Of a stretch of DNA of 64,000 nucleotides, positions 31,004-36,295 are shown one piece after another. The position numbers were made by a program, and so were the translations under genes. The stretch lies in contig NZ_CP060395.1 in the NCBI RefSeq assembly GCF_015840335.1, positions 2,765,277-2,829,276 on the forward strand, written 5' to 3'. The notes below the pieces were generated by a model. It had not been told where the DNA came from and did not search any database. It worked only from the letters and a program-made list of their open reading frames with translations. How positions within the stretch are numbered: position 1 is the first letter of the stretch; the number at the start of each line of letters is the position of its first letter. This DNA is from Synechococcus sp. CBW1108. Its GTDB lineage: Bacteria; Cyanobacteriota; Cyanobacteriia; PCC-6307; Cyanobiaceae.

Positions 31004-32641
31004 TCATGTAAGTAGCAGGTGGTCTACAAACTGGAGCCAGGTGAGGCCATCGGCAGAGTGGCTGAAGAGATAGGACTCCTCCTCAGCATTAAGGGGACGT
31101 TCGCCCACACTGGCCAGCAGACGCCTGAGTTCGGCCGGATCAAGCCTGTCATCGCCGTTGGCATCGACTGGCAGCAGATAGTTGAGCAGGCGAGCCTCGC
31201 CAAGGCGCAAGCGCTGCAGGCGAAGCATCAGCTCACCAAACTCCTCGGCATCCACCCGGCCATCCCCATCCAGGTCCATGGCCTGCAGCACACTTGCCAA
31301 CTGGGCTGCCAGCACTCCAGCCTCTCCGGCTTGCTGGGGATCAATCCCCAGACCATCGAGCAGCTCCGCCGCACTGATATCGCCATTGCCGTCTTGATCG
31401 AGTCGCTGAAACAAGGCCGACATTTGTTGCCGCAGCAGCGCCGGAACCCGTCCAGCCAAAAAAGCGCGGCGCTGGCCGCTGATTGCCAGGTGCAGGTTTT
31501 GACGAAAATCGGCAAGCAGGGTGCGGGCCAACACATAGCGCTGGCGATGCTCCTCCGGAGTCAAGATGGCGTGCAGCGAAACCGGAATCAGGGCCGGCAA
31601 GGCACGACGCACCAGCAGCTGAATCACCCAGGTGGCAAGCACAAAAGCCAAGGTGAGCGAAGGCCAGCCCTGGGCTGGAGTGAGGCCCCAGCCAAACTGG
31701 AACAGACTCGCCAGAGCCGCCCCTCCCAGACCCACCGCCAAGCTGGCCCAGCTGGGGGCGTAAAAAATCCCACCCAAGGCAATCGCCACCAGCAAGCCGT
31801 TGTATCCCCAGAGGCCCTGGGCGATCGCGCCCAAAGGGACATCGAGCAGAAGGCCGGTTGCCATGCCAGCTAGGGCACCAAGTAAACCCAGGCCTGCGGC
31901 AAGGGGGCTGGCGAGGGCTGTAGCAATTAACACCAGCAAGCCACTCCAGGGGTTTGGGCAGAGAAAAACCTGACCCGCGGATCGAAGCAGCCCATGGGCG
32001 AGGGCCTGGGAGGTGCTGGCCAGCTCGGGCATCGGGGTCGGTTCGGCCAGCGCCAATGCCGCCGCCGGCGCAAGCGAAGCCAACCCCAGCAAGCCCCAAC
32101 TAACAAGAATGAAAGGCAGGGTGAGTGGTGGTAGCCCCAGGGAACGGTTGATTCCCCTGCCCAGCCCCTCAAGCAGCAAGGTGGTCAGCGCCCCACCAAG
32201 CAGCACCAAAACAGCCCAAATCAAGCTGGACAAGGGGCGATCGAACTGGGCGAGATTGGCGACGGCGCAGCCCACCAGGGCGCCGTTGAAGCCGTAGATC
32301 CCCTCGCTCCGCAACCCCTCAGCCAAGCCGAGAAGCCGAGCTGTGCAATGGGAAGCTGCGGTACCCAGCAGGGCCAAGAGGGCACACCATGGCGACTGCA
32401 CCAGGAAGGCGAGAAGCAACACCAGACCGCTGAGGGGATTGTTGATGAAGATCACCTGGGCAAAGCCACGCAAACACGCCAGCAGCGAAACCAGGCCGGG
32501 GTTGAGTCGTGCTACTGGGCGATGCAGCTGATGCAGGGTGCCCATAGTGGGCAACAGCCGTTGAAGCCTGGAGGGCAGGTCAACAGCAGGCTCGAGCAAA
32601 TCTCTAAGCAGCTCAAAAGCCGATTTCTCAGGCCTGTCCAT
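31004..32641 (-). CDS. Urea transporter (UT family) with C-terminal EF-hands
   Basis: 545 residues. Residues 45-350 form a urea-channel domain of two repeats: GFAQVIFINNPLSG (59-72) with EGIYGFNGALVG (113-124), and AGQVFLCPNPWSG (222-234) with GLWGYNGLLVAIALGG (276-291). These NPxSG and YGFNG/WGYNG pairs are UT/SLC14 hallmarks for passive urea flow. Residues 410-540 carry EF-hands: DQDGNGDISAAE (415-426), DLDGDGRVDAEE (456-467), DANGDDRLDPAE (493-504) and a degenerate fourth. Ca2+ binding is predicted from the loops. It starts 4 bp after the arginase stop, as the second gene of that operon. Topology and regulation are inferred. Confidence 0.88.
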   Translation of the reverse strand: MDRPEKSAFELLRDLLEPAVDLPSRLQRLLPTMGTLHQLHRPVARLNPGLVSLLACLRGFAQVIFINNPLSGLVLLLAFLVQSPWCALLALLGTAASHCTARLLGLAEGLRSEGIYGFNGALVGCAVANLAQFDRPLSSLIWAVLVLLGGALTTLLLEGLGRGINRSLGLPPLTLPFILVSWGLLGLASLAPAAALALAEPTPMPELASTSQALAHGLLRSAGQVFLCPNPWSGLLVLIATALASPLAAGLGLLGALAGMATGLLLDVPLGAIAQGLWGYNGLLVAIALGGIFYAPSWASLAVGLGGAALASLFQFGWGLTPAQGWPSLTLAFVLATWVIQLLVRRALPALIPVSLHAILTPEEHRQRYVLARTLLADFRQNLHLAISGQRRAFLAGRVPALLRQQMSALFQRLDQDGNGDISAAELLDGLGIDPQQAGEAGVLAAQLASVLQAMDLDGDGRVDAEEFGELMLRLQRLRLGEARLLNYLLPVDANGDDRLDPAELRRLLASVGERPLNAEEESYLFSHSADGLTWLQFVDHLLLT

Positions 32642-32645
32642 CGGC

Positions 32646-32882
32646 CTAGAGACGGGCGTCGAGCACCTCTAACACCTCCTGATAAAGGCTCAGTGACACT
32701 TCAGCCAAGGTATTTAGAGTATCTAGATGGGGATTGATCTCGCAGATTTCCCAGCAGCAGACCCTGGGGTCTGCCAGTAGGCACCGGGTGAGCTGGCGAG
32801 CCTCATCAACCCAAATGCCACCAGGCACGGGCGTGCCGGTGCCCTTACAGATAGTGGAGTCCATGGAATCCACATCAAAGCT
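32646..32882 (-). pseudogene. EF-hand arginase, 3' fragment
   Basis: 78 codons plus stop that complete the arginase domain cut by the insertion sequence. Read from 32882 it gives SFDVDSMDSTICKGTGTPVP (the DxD metal pair and the TGTPxxGG motif), then EINPHLDTLNTLAEVSL and a short end. Joined to the 5' fragment without the element and one 6-bp duplication, the frame is continuous (IYV then SFDVD), giving about 493 residues. The stop is 4 bp before the urea transporter start. By itself it lacks a start and should not be translated. Confidence 0.9.
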
Positions 32883-32888
32883 TACATA

Positions 32889-34645
32889 GGGCTTGCTGAG
32901 GAACCGATATCCATTGCGCCGCAGTTGATTCCAGGGATGGTCTCACGTTAAAATGAGCCTAATGGAGCCATTCCTGGCTTAGAACAATCTGCTGACACGC
33001 CAATGTACGTTTTTCAGCACGCAGGTCAGCTATCGATCGAGGAGTTTTACACGCCCTTCGGCGGCAAACTAGATCCTAATAATCGCTGGCTTCTGCTTCG
33101 TAACCTGATTCCATGGATGCCGCTGGAAAGCCAGTATGCACCCCAATTCAGTGCCAAGACAGGAGCACCGGCCAAGCCGTTTCAGATGGCGTTCGGTGCG
33201 CTGTACATCCAGCAACGCCTGGGAGTGACAGACCGCGAAACAGTTCAGCTGATCACGGAATCACCGTATCTACAATTTTTCATTGGCTTGAGTGCATACC
33301 AGGCAATGCCCCCGTTTGATCCATCGATGATGGTGCATTTTCGTAAGCGCATTGGCCCTGATCTGATCAAGATCTGCAATGACATGACCAAGGCCAATGG
33401 CATTGCGATGATTAAAGAGATGCTGGTTTCGGCGGAGGAGGATGATAGTGAACAAGAAGAGGAGCAACAGCTTGCTGCCATCGACGAAGCGCTAGGGGTG
33501 AAGCCTGCAACGTTGGATCCTGAAAGTAACTGGGGTACTCTGATTCTTGATGCAACCTGCGTGCCTGATGACATTCCCTACCCAGTAGATCTGAGGTTGC
33601 TCAACGAAGCGAGAGAGGCCACTGAGAAGATCATCGACGAACTGTTCAAGCAGTTGCAGGGAAAGATCAATCGTAAACCCCGCTGCAACCGGGATAAAGC
33701 TCGGAATCGGTTTCTGGCGATCATCAAGAAGAAAAAGCCCAAATGCGCCGAGATCCGTGAAGTCAAGCGCTTTCAGCTCAACGAGATCCGGAGAAACCTC
33801 AGAGCAATTGATCAGATGATCCATTGCGGTGCCATGCTTTTGGAGCTTGGAACCCAGCTCTACCGCAAGCTGCTGATCACCAGTGAACTGTACCGGCAGC
33901 AGCAGGAGATGTATGACGCTGATAGCCGGCGCATCGACGATCGGATTGTCAATTTGTCAAAACCACACGTGCGGCCGATCGTGAGGGGCAAGGCGGGAAG
34001 GCGAACAGAGTTCGGTGCGAAGATCTCAATATCAGATGATAATGGCTTTGTCGATGTGGATCGAATCAGCTGGGACAACTACAATGAAGCCAACGACCTG
34101 ATCGCACGTACCAAGCAATACAAGGAAGAGCGAGGGTACTATCCAGCACGAATCTGTGCCGATTCAATCTATATGACATTAGGCAACAAGAAGTTCTGCG
34201 CAGAAAATAACATCAGACTCAGTGGCCGTCCACGCAAGAAGCAGGTAGAGGCCGAGGTGCAGACAGCAGAGCAACAAGAGCTTTTTAAATCAGACTTGAG
34301 AAAGCGTTCCGTGATCGAGGGAAGAATCGGAACGAGCAAACGGAAATATGGACTGGATCGGATCATGACCAAGCTGATTGAAACATCAAGAACGGTGATC
34401 ACGATGGCGTTCTTTGTGATGAATGCCGAGAAGGTTCTCAGGCTACTGCGCCTCTTATTATCTATTCTTGTCTCTGTGTACATCCTGATGCTCTATTTGC
34501 TCGCCTCCTGGCGCCGTCCAGCGCTTCTGTGGGCTGCTTAGTCAGCTTCTAGGAGTAAAATTGAGGTCACCAGCGCTTGGCGCTGCAGGCTGAGTCGCGG
34601 CCCTTGGCGCGGACGAAAAACCCGCGAATGAAATTCAGCAAGCCC
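32889..34645 (+). mobile_element. Insertion sequence (IS5/IS1182-like) within the arginase gene
   Basis: A 1,757-bp element. Left end GGGCTTGCTGA at 32889-32899 is inverted exactly at the right end (34635-34645). A 6-bp target duplication TACATA flanks it at 32883-32888 and 34646-34651. Removal of the element with one duplication copy restores the host arginase frame. The only gene inside is the transposase on the + strand. The composition is visibly more AT-rich than the neighbours, consistent with arrival from elsewhere. No internal damage to the ends is seen, so insertion is probably recent. Family naming is tentative; a 6-bp duplication is not the usual value I know for IS5. Confidence 0.9.
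33003..34541 (+). CDS. DDE transposase, IS5/IS1182-like
   Basis: 512 residues. The N-terminal part has FGGKLDPNNRWLLLRNLIPW, AKPFQMAFGALYIQQRLGVTDRETVQL and FDPSMMVHFRKR, typical of the DUF772-containing transposases. The catalytic acids are likely in LILDATCVPDDIPYP (Asp), ARICADSIYM (Asp) and SVIEGRIGTSKRKYGLDRI (Glu). A Glu-rich loop near residue 145 and a Lys-rich stretch lie between. The C-terminus, beyond VMNAEKVLRLLRLL, is an extra hydrophobic tail. The gene appears intact. Confidence 0.9.
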   Translation: MYVFQHAGQLSIEEFYTPFGGKLDPNNRWLLLRNLIPWMPLESQYAPQFSAKTGAPAKPFQMAFGALYIQQRLGVTDRETVQLITESPYLQFFIGLSAYQAMPPFDPSMMVHFRKRIGPDLIKICNDMTKANGIAMIKEMLVSAEEDDSEQEEEQQLAAIDEALGVKPATLDPESNWGTLILDATCVPDDIPYPVDLRLLNEAREATEKIIDELFKQLQGKINRKPRCNRDKARNRFLAIIKKKKPKCAEIREVKRFQLNEIRRNLRAIDQMIHCGAMLLELGTQLYRKLLITSELYRQQQEMYDADSRRIDDRIVNLSKPHVRPIVRGKAGRRTEFGAKISISDDNGFVDVDRISWDNYNEANDLIARTKQYKEERGYYPARICADSIYMTLGNKKFCAENNIRLSGRPRKKQVEAEVQTAEQQELFKSDLRKRSVIEGRIGTSKRKYGLDRIMTKLIETSRTVITMAFFVMNAEKVLRLLRLLLSILVSVYILMLYLLASWRRPALLWAA

Positions 34646-35890
34646 TACATAGATCAAATCGACCTGACTGAGATGGTCTAGGCAGCGCTGGGATGCCTGC
34701 TCTGGTCCGAATCGCCGAACATCATCCGTCGTAATGATCGGTATGGAGAAATGCTCAATCGTGATATTTTCCGCCGGCTCCGTATCACGAACTGCCACAT
34801 AAATCAGGTCTTCAAGAATGATCGACGGCGATCCTGTGCCATTGAGATATTGGAGCTCCTTCCAAAGCAACCTGGTCGTGGAATCGGGCTCGTTGATGGC
34901 CTCAATGGTGTTGTCGTGAGCCGAGGCAATGGCCAAAGGCATGCCGTGCATGTTGCCGGAGGGCGTGGTGTACGGGGAATGGATATCGGCATGGGCATCG
35001 ATCCACACCACACCTAGGCGCCGCTCGGGATGGGCCCGGCGAATGCCGGCGATGGTGGAGGCAGCCGTGGAGTGATCACCAGCGATCACGATTGGGAACA
35101 GCCCGCGCTCCAGGCTGGAGGCCACCAAGGCGGCCGCGTCCCGCATCACGCCGGCAATCGTCTCGATATGGCGTGCGTGGGGGGTGGAGGTGGCGGGGCC
35201 CAGCTCCGCGGCTCGGGCGCCTGGCCTGGTCTGACCCTTTATTTCCTCAATTAAACGATCGCTGATTTGGCGTAGCTCCTGCTGACGGGCAGCGGCCTGC
35301 TTGAGCAAATCAATGCCAGAACCTGCTCCAGGCGTGCCAGCACCGAGGTCGCAGTCGACCTCTACCAAGGCAACCCTGGAGCGGCTGGAGGCGTTTACAT
35401 ACTGAGCCAGGGTCTTTTTGAGTCGCTTCAGATCTGCCAGCGACAGCTCGATCACCGCATCGGCTTCGAGTAGCTGCAGAAATTCTTCAACGCTGATGCA
35501 GTTGTCGCCATCTCGATCGAGGGCTGCCAGCAACCGCTCTGCCGCTGGCAGATCTGCGCAGGCGGGCGCCAGGGCCGCGAGCAGCACCTCCAGCTCCCGG
35601 AAATTGAGGCTGCCACTGCCATCGCTATCTATTAACTCAAAGATCTCGCGCAGGCATGAGGCAACGGCCAAACCCTGCCGGCCTTGGGCCCAGCGGCTGA
35701 AGGCGGCCAGCTCCACCTCGCCATCGCAGCCAACCAGATCACGCAGAGCTTGGCGATCTTCAATGGCAATCACTCCAGCCATGCTGGCAAGAACATGCTC
35801 CACTTCATCGGCAGATATTTTCCCATCGCCGTCTTGATCAAATAGACCAAAAATACCGACAAATTCATCTGAACGAGAGGATATTGACAC
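34646..35890 (-). pseudogene. EF-hand arginase-family ureohydrolase, 5' fragment
   Basis: 415 codons up to the insertion point; the reading continues 36 codons into the element to a stop at 34538. Residues 1-145 hold EF-hands: DQDGDGKISADE (18-29), DSDGSGSLNFRE (88-99), DRDGDNCISVEE (125-136) and a degenerate one near 51-64. The arginase domain follows from about 170: AGDHS with His273, WIDAHADIH with Asp298/His300/Asp302, and SGNMHGMPLA. The last Mn ligands are in the 3' fragment. Arginase makes urea and ornithine; the adjacent EF-hand urea transporter suggests a common pathway. The truncated product lacks the second metal-binding half, so activity is unlikely. Agmatinase or guanidinobutyrase activity is not excluded. 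Confidence 0.9.
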
Positions 35891-36064: not shown

Positions 36065-36295
36065 GTGGAGTTCAAGGGATCCCTGGACGAGCTCAAGGAG
36101 TTGGTTGCCCAACTCGGGGTGCCGTGTCAATGGCAACACAAGGGGGCTTTTGAGCTGGCCGTTTTTGAAGATGGCGTCAGCAATCTGAAACTCAACTGGT
36201 GGCCCCGGGATGGAATCCTGCGATTGGTGGGAGATCCGGAGGTTCGCGACAGCCTGCAGGCAAAACTGCAAGAGATGCTCAGCCGGCAAGCCTAA
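36065..36295 (+). CDS. Small conserved-looking hypothetical protein
   Basis: 76 residues from a GTG start: MEFKGSLDELKELVAQLG, then CQWQHKGAFELAVFEDGVSNLKLNWWP and GILRLVGDP. It reads as a compact alpha/beta domain of good composition. It precedes the ABC ATPase by 32 bp. I recognise no named family. The 170-bp gap upstream, between it and the divergent arginase, has the only room for both promoters. Confidence 0.65.
   Translation: MEFKGSLDELKELVAQLGVPCQWQHKGAFELAVFEDGVSNLKLNWWPRDGILRLVGDPEVRDSLQAKLQEMLSRQA

Follow-up and report, generated by a model that had tools for sequence, protein, structure and literature searches.

We found that the analysed DNA carries a real, conserved and mobile two-gene module, in which an arginase-family enzyme and a UT-family urea transporter (UT) are each fused to a calmodulin-like EF-hand domain; each domain is known, and the combination is apparently new within the literature searched. 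The window, a 64,000-nucleotide stretch of Synechococcus sp. CBW1108 (single contig, 3.23 Mb; its relatives are Cyanobium/Synechococcus-type picocyanobacteria), holds the pair as a reverse-strand block within a forward-strand ABC-transporter cluster, with 4 bp between the arginase stop and the UT start (Table 1). Pfam and loop matches placed three EF-hand loops at the arginase N-terminus and three at the UT C-terminus, and in the loops, the spacing and the orientation of the block the locus agrees with the original prediction. As for what the fusions do, we lean towards Ca2+ regulation of both activities.

Upon examination of the downstream gene, we observe a match to the Pfam UT family (E 6e-70, 236.1 bits against a cut-off of 25) followed by EF-hand families at residues 406-473 (E 1e-13 to 3e-11). 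The AF2 model of the product reached a pLDDT of 77 and Foldseek aligned it to UT-B and dvUT (TMt 0.74-0.86), so that by family and fold it is predicted to be a urea transport channel; a genome search found the window copy, which is intact, to be the single UT of the genome. The upstream gene is less straightforward. The open reading frame at 34538-35890 had been read as the arginase, and its 5' part does belong to the arginase family, but it is not the whole gene, which is split by an IS5-family element. The element lies between ...DLIYV and SFDVDSMD... of the arginase and encodes an IS5-family transposase at 33003-34541; its matching 11-bp inverted ends and the 6-bp target repeat TATGTA on both sides (34646-34651 and 32883-32888) indicate a clean insertion, and its end was matched at ~15 other sites of the genome, as for a multi-copy element. 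The 5' part matches EF-hand families at residues 11-142 (E 5e-19 to 3e-15) and Pfam Arginase at residues 172-416 (profile positions 2-208 of 280), the 3' part (32649-32888) aligns with profile positions 206-276, and the two broken pieces score 97.2 and 56.5 bits with the Pfam Arginase model (cut-off 22). Six metal ligands, H273, D298, H300, D302, D418 and D420, are invariant in intact orthologs and correspond to H101, D124, H126, D128, D232 and D234 of human ARG1, the last two being severed by the insertion in this genome. Without the second metal-ligand motif (DVD), the truncated arginase of this strain is expected to be dead, and as a Pfam model search found no second arginase-family gene in the genome, Synechococcus sp. 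CBW1108 probably has no working copy. Intact orthologs stand in for the IS-broken arginase; in four same-genus genomes (G001, G004, G005, G007) both genes are whole, with 493 and 545 aa, and always 4 bp apart.

Table 1. Features of the module and its surroundings, in positions of the window.
Feature	Position	Strand	Evidence
Whole present/absent segment	30977-36328	.	absent from same-genus G015
Intact urea transporter gene (UT/SLC14 family; 545 aa), EF-hand domain at the C-terminus	31004-32641	-	Pfam UT and EF-hand matches, AF2, Foldseek
Calmodulin-like EF-hand domain of UT, residues 406-545	31007-31426	-	Pfam, model, ortholog conservation
EF-hand loops of UT, DQDGNGDISAAE, DLDGDGRVDAEE, DANGDDRLDPAE	31364-31399, 31241-31276, 31130-31165	-	
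UT channel domain, residues 55-343	31613-32479	-	Pfam
Arginase gene, 3' part, 80 aa and stop, with metal ligands DVD and EINP motif	32646-32888	-	Pfam Arginase 206-276 of 280
IS5-family insertion in arginase gene, ends GGGCTTGCTGA / TCAGCAAGCCC	32889-34645	.	11-bp inverted ends, target repeat, multi-copy
EF-hand arginase gene, 5' part, GTG start, up to the IS	34646-35890	-	Pfam; intact orthologs L013, L014, L015, L016
Basic junction helix LSLADLKRLKKTLAQYV, between EF-hands and arginase domain	35387-35449	-	near-invariant in EF-bearing orthologs, absent from EF-less
EF-hand domain of arginase, residues 1-148	35447-35890	-	Pfam, ortholog conservation
EF-hand loops of arginase	35804-35839, 35594-35629, 35483-35518	-	
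Small divergent gene, 76 aa, motif VSNLKLNWWP..G.LRLVGDPEVRD	36065-36295	+	conserved beside module in two genera

Next, we investigated the likely substrate of the enzyme. In the PDB its top matches are without exception true arginases (2eiv, 2ef4, 1cev and human ARG1; E 2e-41 to 2e-32), with agmatinase 2 entries scoring far lower, and it retains the SGNxHG motif of the arginase type and the E186-type residue. In the alignment a His stands opposite human N130 and a Glu opposite D183, and the His at the N130 position makes the substrate uncertain. Both replacements would suit a different ureohydrolase, such as one that hydrolyses guanidine or a guanidino acid and supplies urea from another source, as would the NCBIfam rocF scores of 124.4 and 50.6 bits (cut-off 227.6), which were obtained for the two broken pieces of the own-genome arginase. 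Cyanobacterial agmatinase-like enzymes do include other activities, and such an enzyme would be compatible with calcium control; given the PDB ranking and the retained arginase-type residues we nonetheless consider it unlikely. An Rfam search gave no match near the locus, the guanidine riboswitch included. L-arginine is the probable substrate.

Examining the EF-hand domains across orthologs, we observe that the acidic loop residues are conserved, with D1 and E12 present in 36 of 36 UTs in each of the three loops and positions 3 and 5 nearly always Asp, Asn or Ser, while the arginase loops hold D1 in 18-20 and E12 in 19-20 of 20 proteins. The EF-hand_7 scores are 57.0 and 44.1 bits against a cut-off of 30, placing both domains among paired EF-hands. 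The fourth hand of the UT domain and the second of the arginase domain are degenerate, leaving each protein a calmodulin-like domain of four hands, of which three are likely sites. PDB sequence matches of the EF parts are to calmodulin, troponin C and centrin, and Foldseek also listed, with weak E-values, the calmodulin-like domains of CDPKs for the UT part. The EF domains are under purifying selection (dN/dS 0.09-0.39, values like those of the catalytic and channel parts). These domains very probably bind Ca2+. Position 6 of UT loop 3 is Asp rather than Gly in most orthologs, which counts against the calcium-control reading. Between the EF-hands and the catalytic domain of the arginase lies a basic, amphipathic helix, SLADLKRLKKTL..Y, which was found in 20/20 EF-bearing orthologs, even in the distant G599 (SIAALRSFKKTLLQY), and is missing from the three orthologous Cyanobiaceae arginases that lack EF-hands (G020, G366, G374). 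Such co-variation is the pattern expected of an intramolecular calmodulin-target helix and suggests that role here; the claim is weaker for the UT junction helix, which partly matches the natural end of mammalian UTs, as far as roughly residue 375.

The same domains could instead hold Ca2+ (or Mn2+) permanently and merely stabilise both proteins, without any switch. Canonical loops would bind tightly and many bacterial calcium sites are structural, but the EF-hand side of both proteins is predicted to be cytoplasmic, where free Ca2+ is low, the four-hand layout with its co-varying junction helix resembles a sensor, and the EF-less arginase orthologs are presumably stable. We therefore regard a purely structural role as rather improbable and continue to favour calcium control.

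We then analysed the spread of the pair by searching 400 Cyanobiaceae genomes with UT-EF and arginase profiles, a few decayed copies being counted in. The UT-EF profile was matched in 41 genomes of six genera and the arginase profile in 26 genomes of five genera. Both genes occur together in 25 genomes against 2.7 expected, with a hypergeometric P of ~1e-27 that overstates independence because the sampled genomes are related. All but one of the arginase genomes (25/26) also have the UT, the exception stopping at a contig edge, and at 21 loci, one of them this window with its broken arginase, the two genes form a tandem on one strand with the arginase first (spacing -56 to 286 bp). Distances among the arginases and among the UTs are correlated (Mantel r 0.90). 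Within a phylum sample, full UT-EF genes were also found in another cyanobacterial family (G538, G599 and G732, with genomes of 5.6-9.4 Mb); G599 has a full EF-arginase too, on a separate contig from its UT-EF, and in G721 an arginase is present with its EF part out of frame. The module is conserved down to ~35-50% identity over genera and this other family. This conservation across orthologs rules out chance or strain-specific fusions and, as the recurrence of adjacent fusions and of the loop acids was what the original prediction turned on, it carries that prediction beyond this strain. Outside cyanobacteria, a named-genome scan that used two peptide patterns detected UTs only without EF-hands.

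Upon searching for other EF-hand proteins, EF-hand_7 matched the two module genes and one weak 96-aa ORF in the own genome. With EF-hand_5, five pair-bearing same-genus genomes yielded both genes, an ORF of ~90-110 aa in four of the five and at most one further marginal match, and six same-genus genomes without the pair yielded 0-1 match each, indicating that EF-hand-pair domains are largely confined to the arginase and the UT. That the same kind of domain sits on both tandem partners, as the sole EF-hand-pair proteins of the genome, and that their distances are correlated could mean that paired lobes dock the arginase to the UT, so that urea would arise right at the channel entrance. Several genomes, however, keep UT-EF without arginase, which indicates that the UT is independent of the arginase, and in G020 the UT retains its EF-hands although the arginase linked to it is without them; we find docking doubtful, and it is in any case compatible with calcium control and hence not exclusive of it. 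The AF2 model of the arginase (pLDDT 64, four sequences in the input) is too weak for interface claims. Recurring neighbours give no indication of a shared partner gene at UT-only loci.

The arginase or the UT has decayed repeatedly, sometimes beside an intact partner (L120, L119, L159, L160, L161, L162), and decay in several lineages indicates that the module is dispensable and often lost. A decaying, functionless curiosity of the strain, as the IS-broken arginase and several other broken copies might suggest, is contradicted by conservation over genera and another family, by purifying selection and by the recurrent tandem order, and is highly improbable.

When comparing genomes of the same genus, we observe that in G015 a clean junction stands in place of the whole segment, between flanks that are 94% identical, and that G010-G015 have the ABC-transporter cluster without the pair. 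In the pair-bearing genomes of the genus the block lies in reverse orientation among the genes of an ABC transporter, with the selenate-type substrate-binding protein on one side and the ATPase/permease on the other. Between G000 and G001 the synonymous distance is 0.51-0.72 for the flanking genes and 0.16-0.23 for the pair, whereas the pair of G007 is more diverged (~1.0) than its own flanks. These distances, together with the empty site in G015, indicate that the pair has a separate history, and transfer between lineages as a unit, as had been proposed, is most likely on these sequence comparisons. G188 (L158), from another genus, has a UT-EF gene but no arginase, at what seems to be the same ABC-transporter site. 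A third gene, encoded divergently and directly upstream of the arginase in five same-genus genomes and in six genomes of another genus (with some copies broken), specifies proteins of ~76-112 aa, which matched no family in Pfam or NCBIfam; in G188, G061 and G112 it lies close to a UT or to EF-hand remnants. Its copies include those at L013 6855-7127, L107 9500-9742 and L158 6852-7118.

Our favoured explanation is a mobile two-gene cyanobacterial module through which one calcium signal would govern urea handling at both ends. Of the two proteins, the first would be a cytoplasmic arginase, converting arginine to ornithine and urea, with its N-terminal calmodulin-like domain joined through the basic amphipathic helix, and the second a urea channel of the UT family whose C-terminal calmodulin-like domain lies in the cytoplasm. 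Upon a rise in cytosolic Ca2+, the EF-hand lobes would bind the ion and change their arrangement on the neighbouring helix in a CDPK-like manner, shifting arginase activity (most likely by relief of inhibition) and channel gating together. Urease of the same cell would turn the urea from arginase into ammonia; urease alpha was found in 35 of the 40 genomes checked, the own genome included. The channel could pass urea inward or outward, and gating would retain arginase-made urea or admit outside urea when timely. The UT family forms passive channels (structures 3k3f and others), and since an open one would leak urea made inside, gating and joint control would make sense; the sign of the gating effect may be either, as far as the sequence goes. 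Taken as a whole, we hold this explanation to be somewhat better than an even bet. A search for the NtcA box (GTAN8TAC) in the 300 bp preceding each of 20 arginase genes gave a single match, in G257, and we therefore make no claim of NtcA control.

In the open-licence papers searched we found no description of an EF-hand UT or an EF-hand arginase fusion, and the claim that the system is undescribed thus stands for that literature. The enzyme shares the catalytic domain and the six metal ligands with arginases of the ureohydrolase superfamily (RocF/ARG1; closest solved structures Thermus 2eiv/2ef4 and B. caldovelox 1cev) but adds an N-terminal four-hand calmodulin-like domain, the basic helix and His at the N130-type residue. 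Similarly, the transporter shares the channel fold, and sequence over ~320 residues, with UT/SLC14 channels (Desulfovibrio dvUT 3k3f and mammalian UT-B), whereas its C-terminal calmodulin-like domain of ~140 residues is unseen in the solved UTs. CDPKs and the mitochondrial carriers citrin and aralar likewise carry a regulatory domain of EF-hands covalently linked to an enzyme or transporter, CDPKs through a junction helix as in the module arginase; those proteins, however, are eukaryotic, have unrelated catalytic and transport domains and include no arginase or UT. The module protein has an arginase rather than a kinase as its catalytic part, and by analogy it may work like a CDPK without being one. 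In filamentous cyanobacteria the EF-hand calcium sensor CSE is also tied to nitrogen metabolism, which it affects in Anabaena, but it is small, stand-alone and unfused to any enzyme or channel (PMC7065334). The authors of that study describe the mechanisms of cyanobacterial calcium signalling as virtually unknown and CSE as the sole known sensor in Anabaena (PMC7065334). While the targets of bacterial calcium signals are largely open, here the fusion itself names the target, namely two metabolic proteins; if the explanation is true, calcium would be tied to arginine nitrogen and urea in picocyanobacteria, and the module UT is a natural candidate for an EF-hand-gated urea channel. For the fullest version, a bacterial calcium-effector module in which an enzyme and a channel of one metabolite carry their own calmodulin-like switches, are jointly gated by Ca2+, spread as a unit and have a small third protein as partner, we see the chances as evenly balanced.

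Finally, several proteins outside the module were noted. The UTs of G041 and G050 were rejected as additional EF-hand cases, the G041 protein carrying an M23 peptidase domain and no EF-hands and the G050 protein being its homolog, and what matched in G446, a genome from a different branch of the phylum, is a protein with many EF-hands rather than a UT. Stand-alone EF-hand ORFs at L164 7501-8208 (G257) and L165 6776-7162 (G112) resemble the C-terminal EF part of the UT and lie away from the main locus. A small EF-hand protein with a signal-like N-terminus is encoded at L182 3690-3977, equivalent to 1083689-1083976 of the own genome, and EF-hand ORFs of similar size occur in several same-genus genomes. 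A different kind of UT fusion, to an M23 peptidase domain, was found in a cyanobacterium (L018 3912-6077; a homolog in a second, L019 8543-10708) and in Bacteroidota (L071 5977-8187), the genes of the two cyanobacteria adjoining an ornithine/DAP decarboxylase-like gene.
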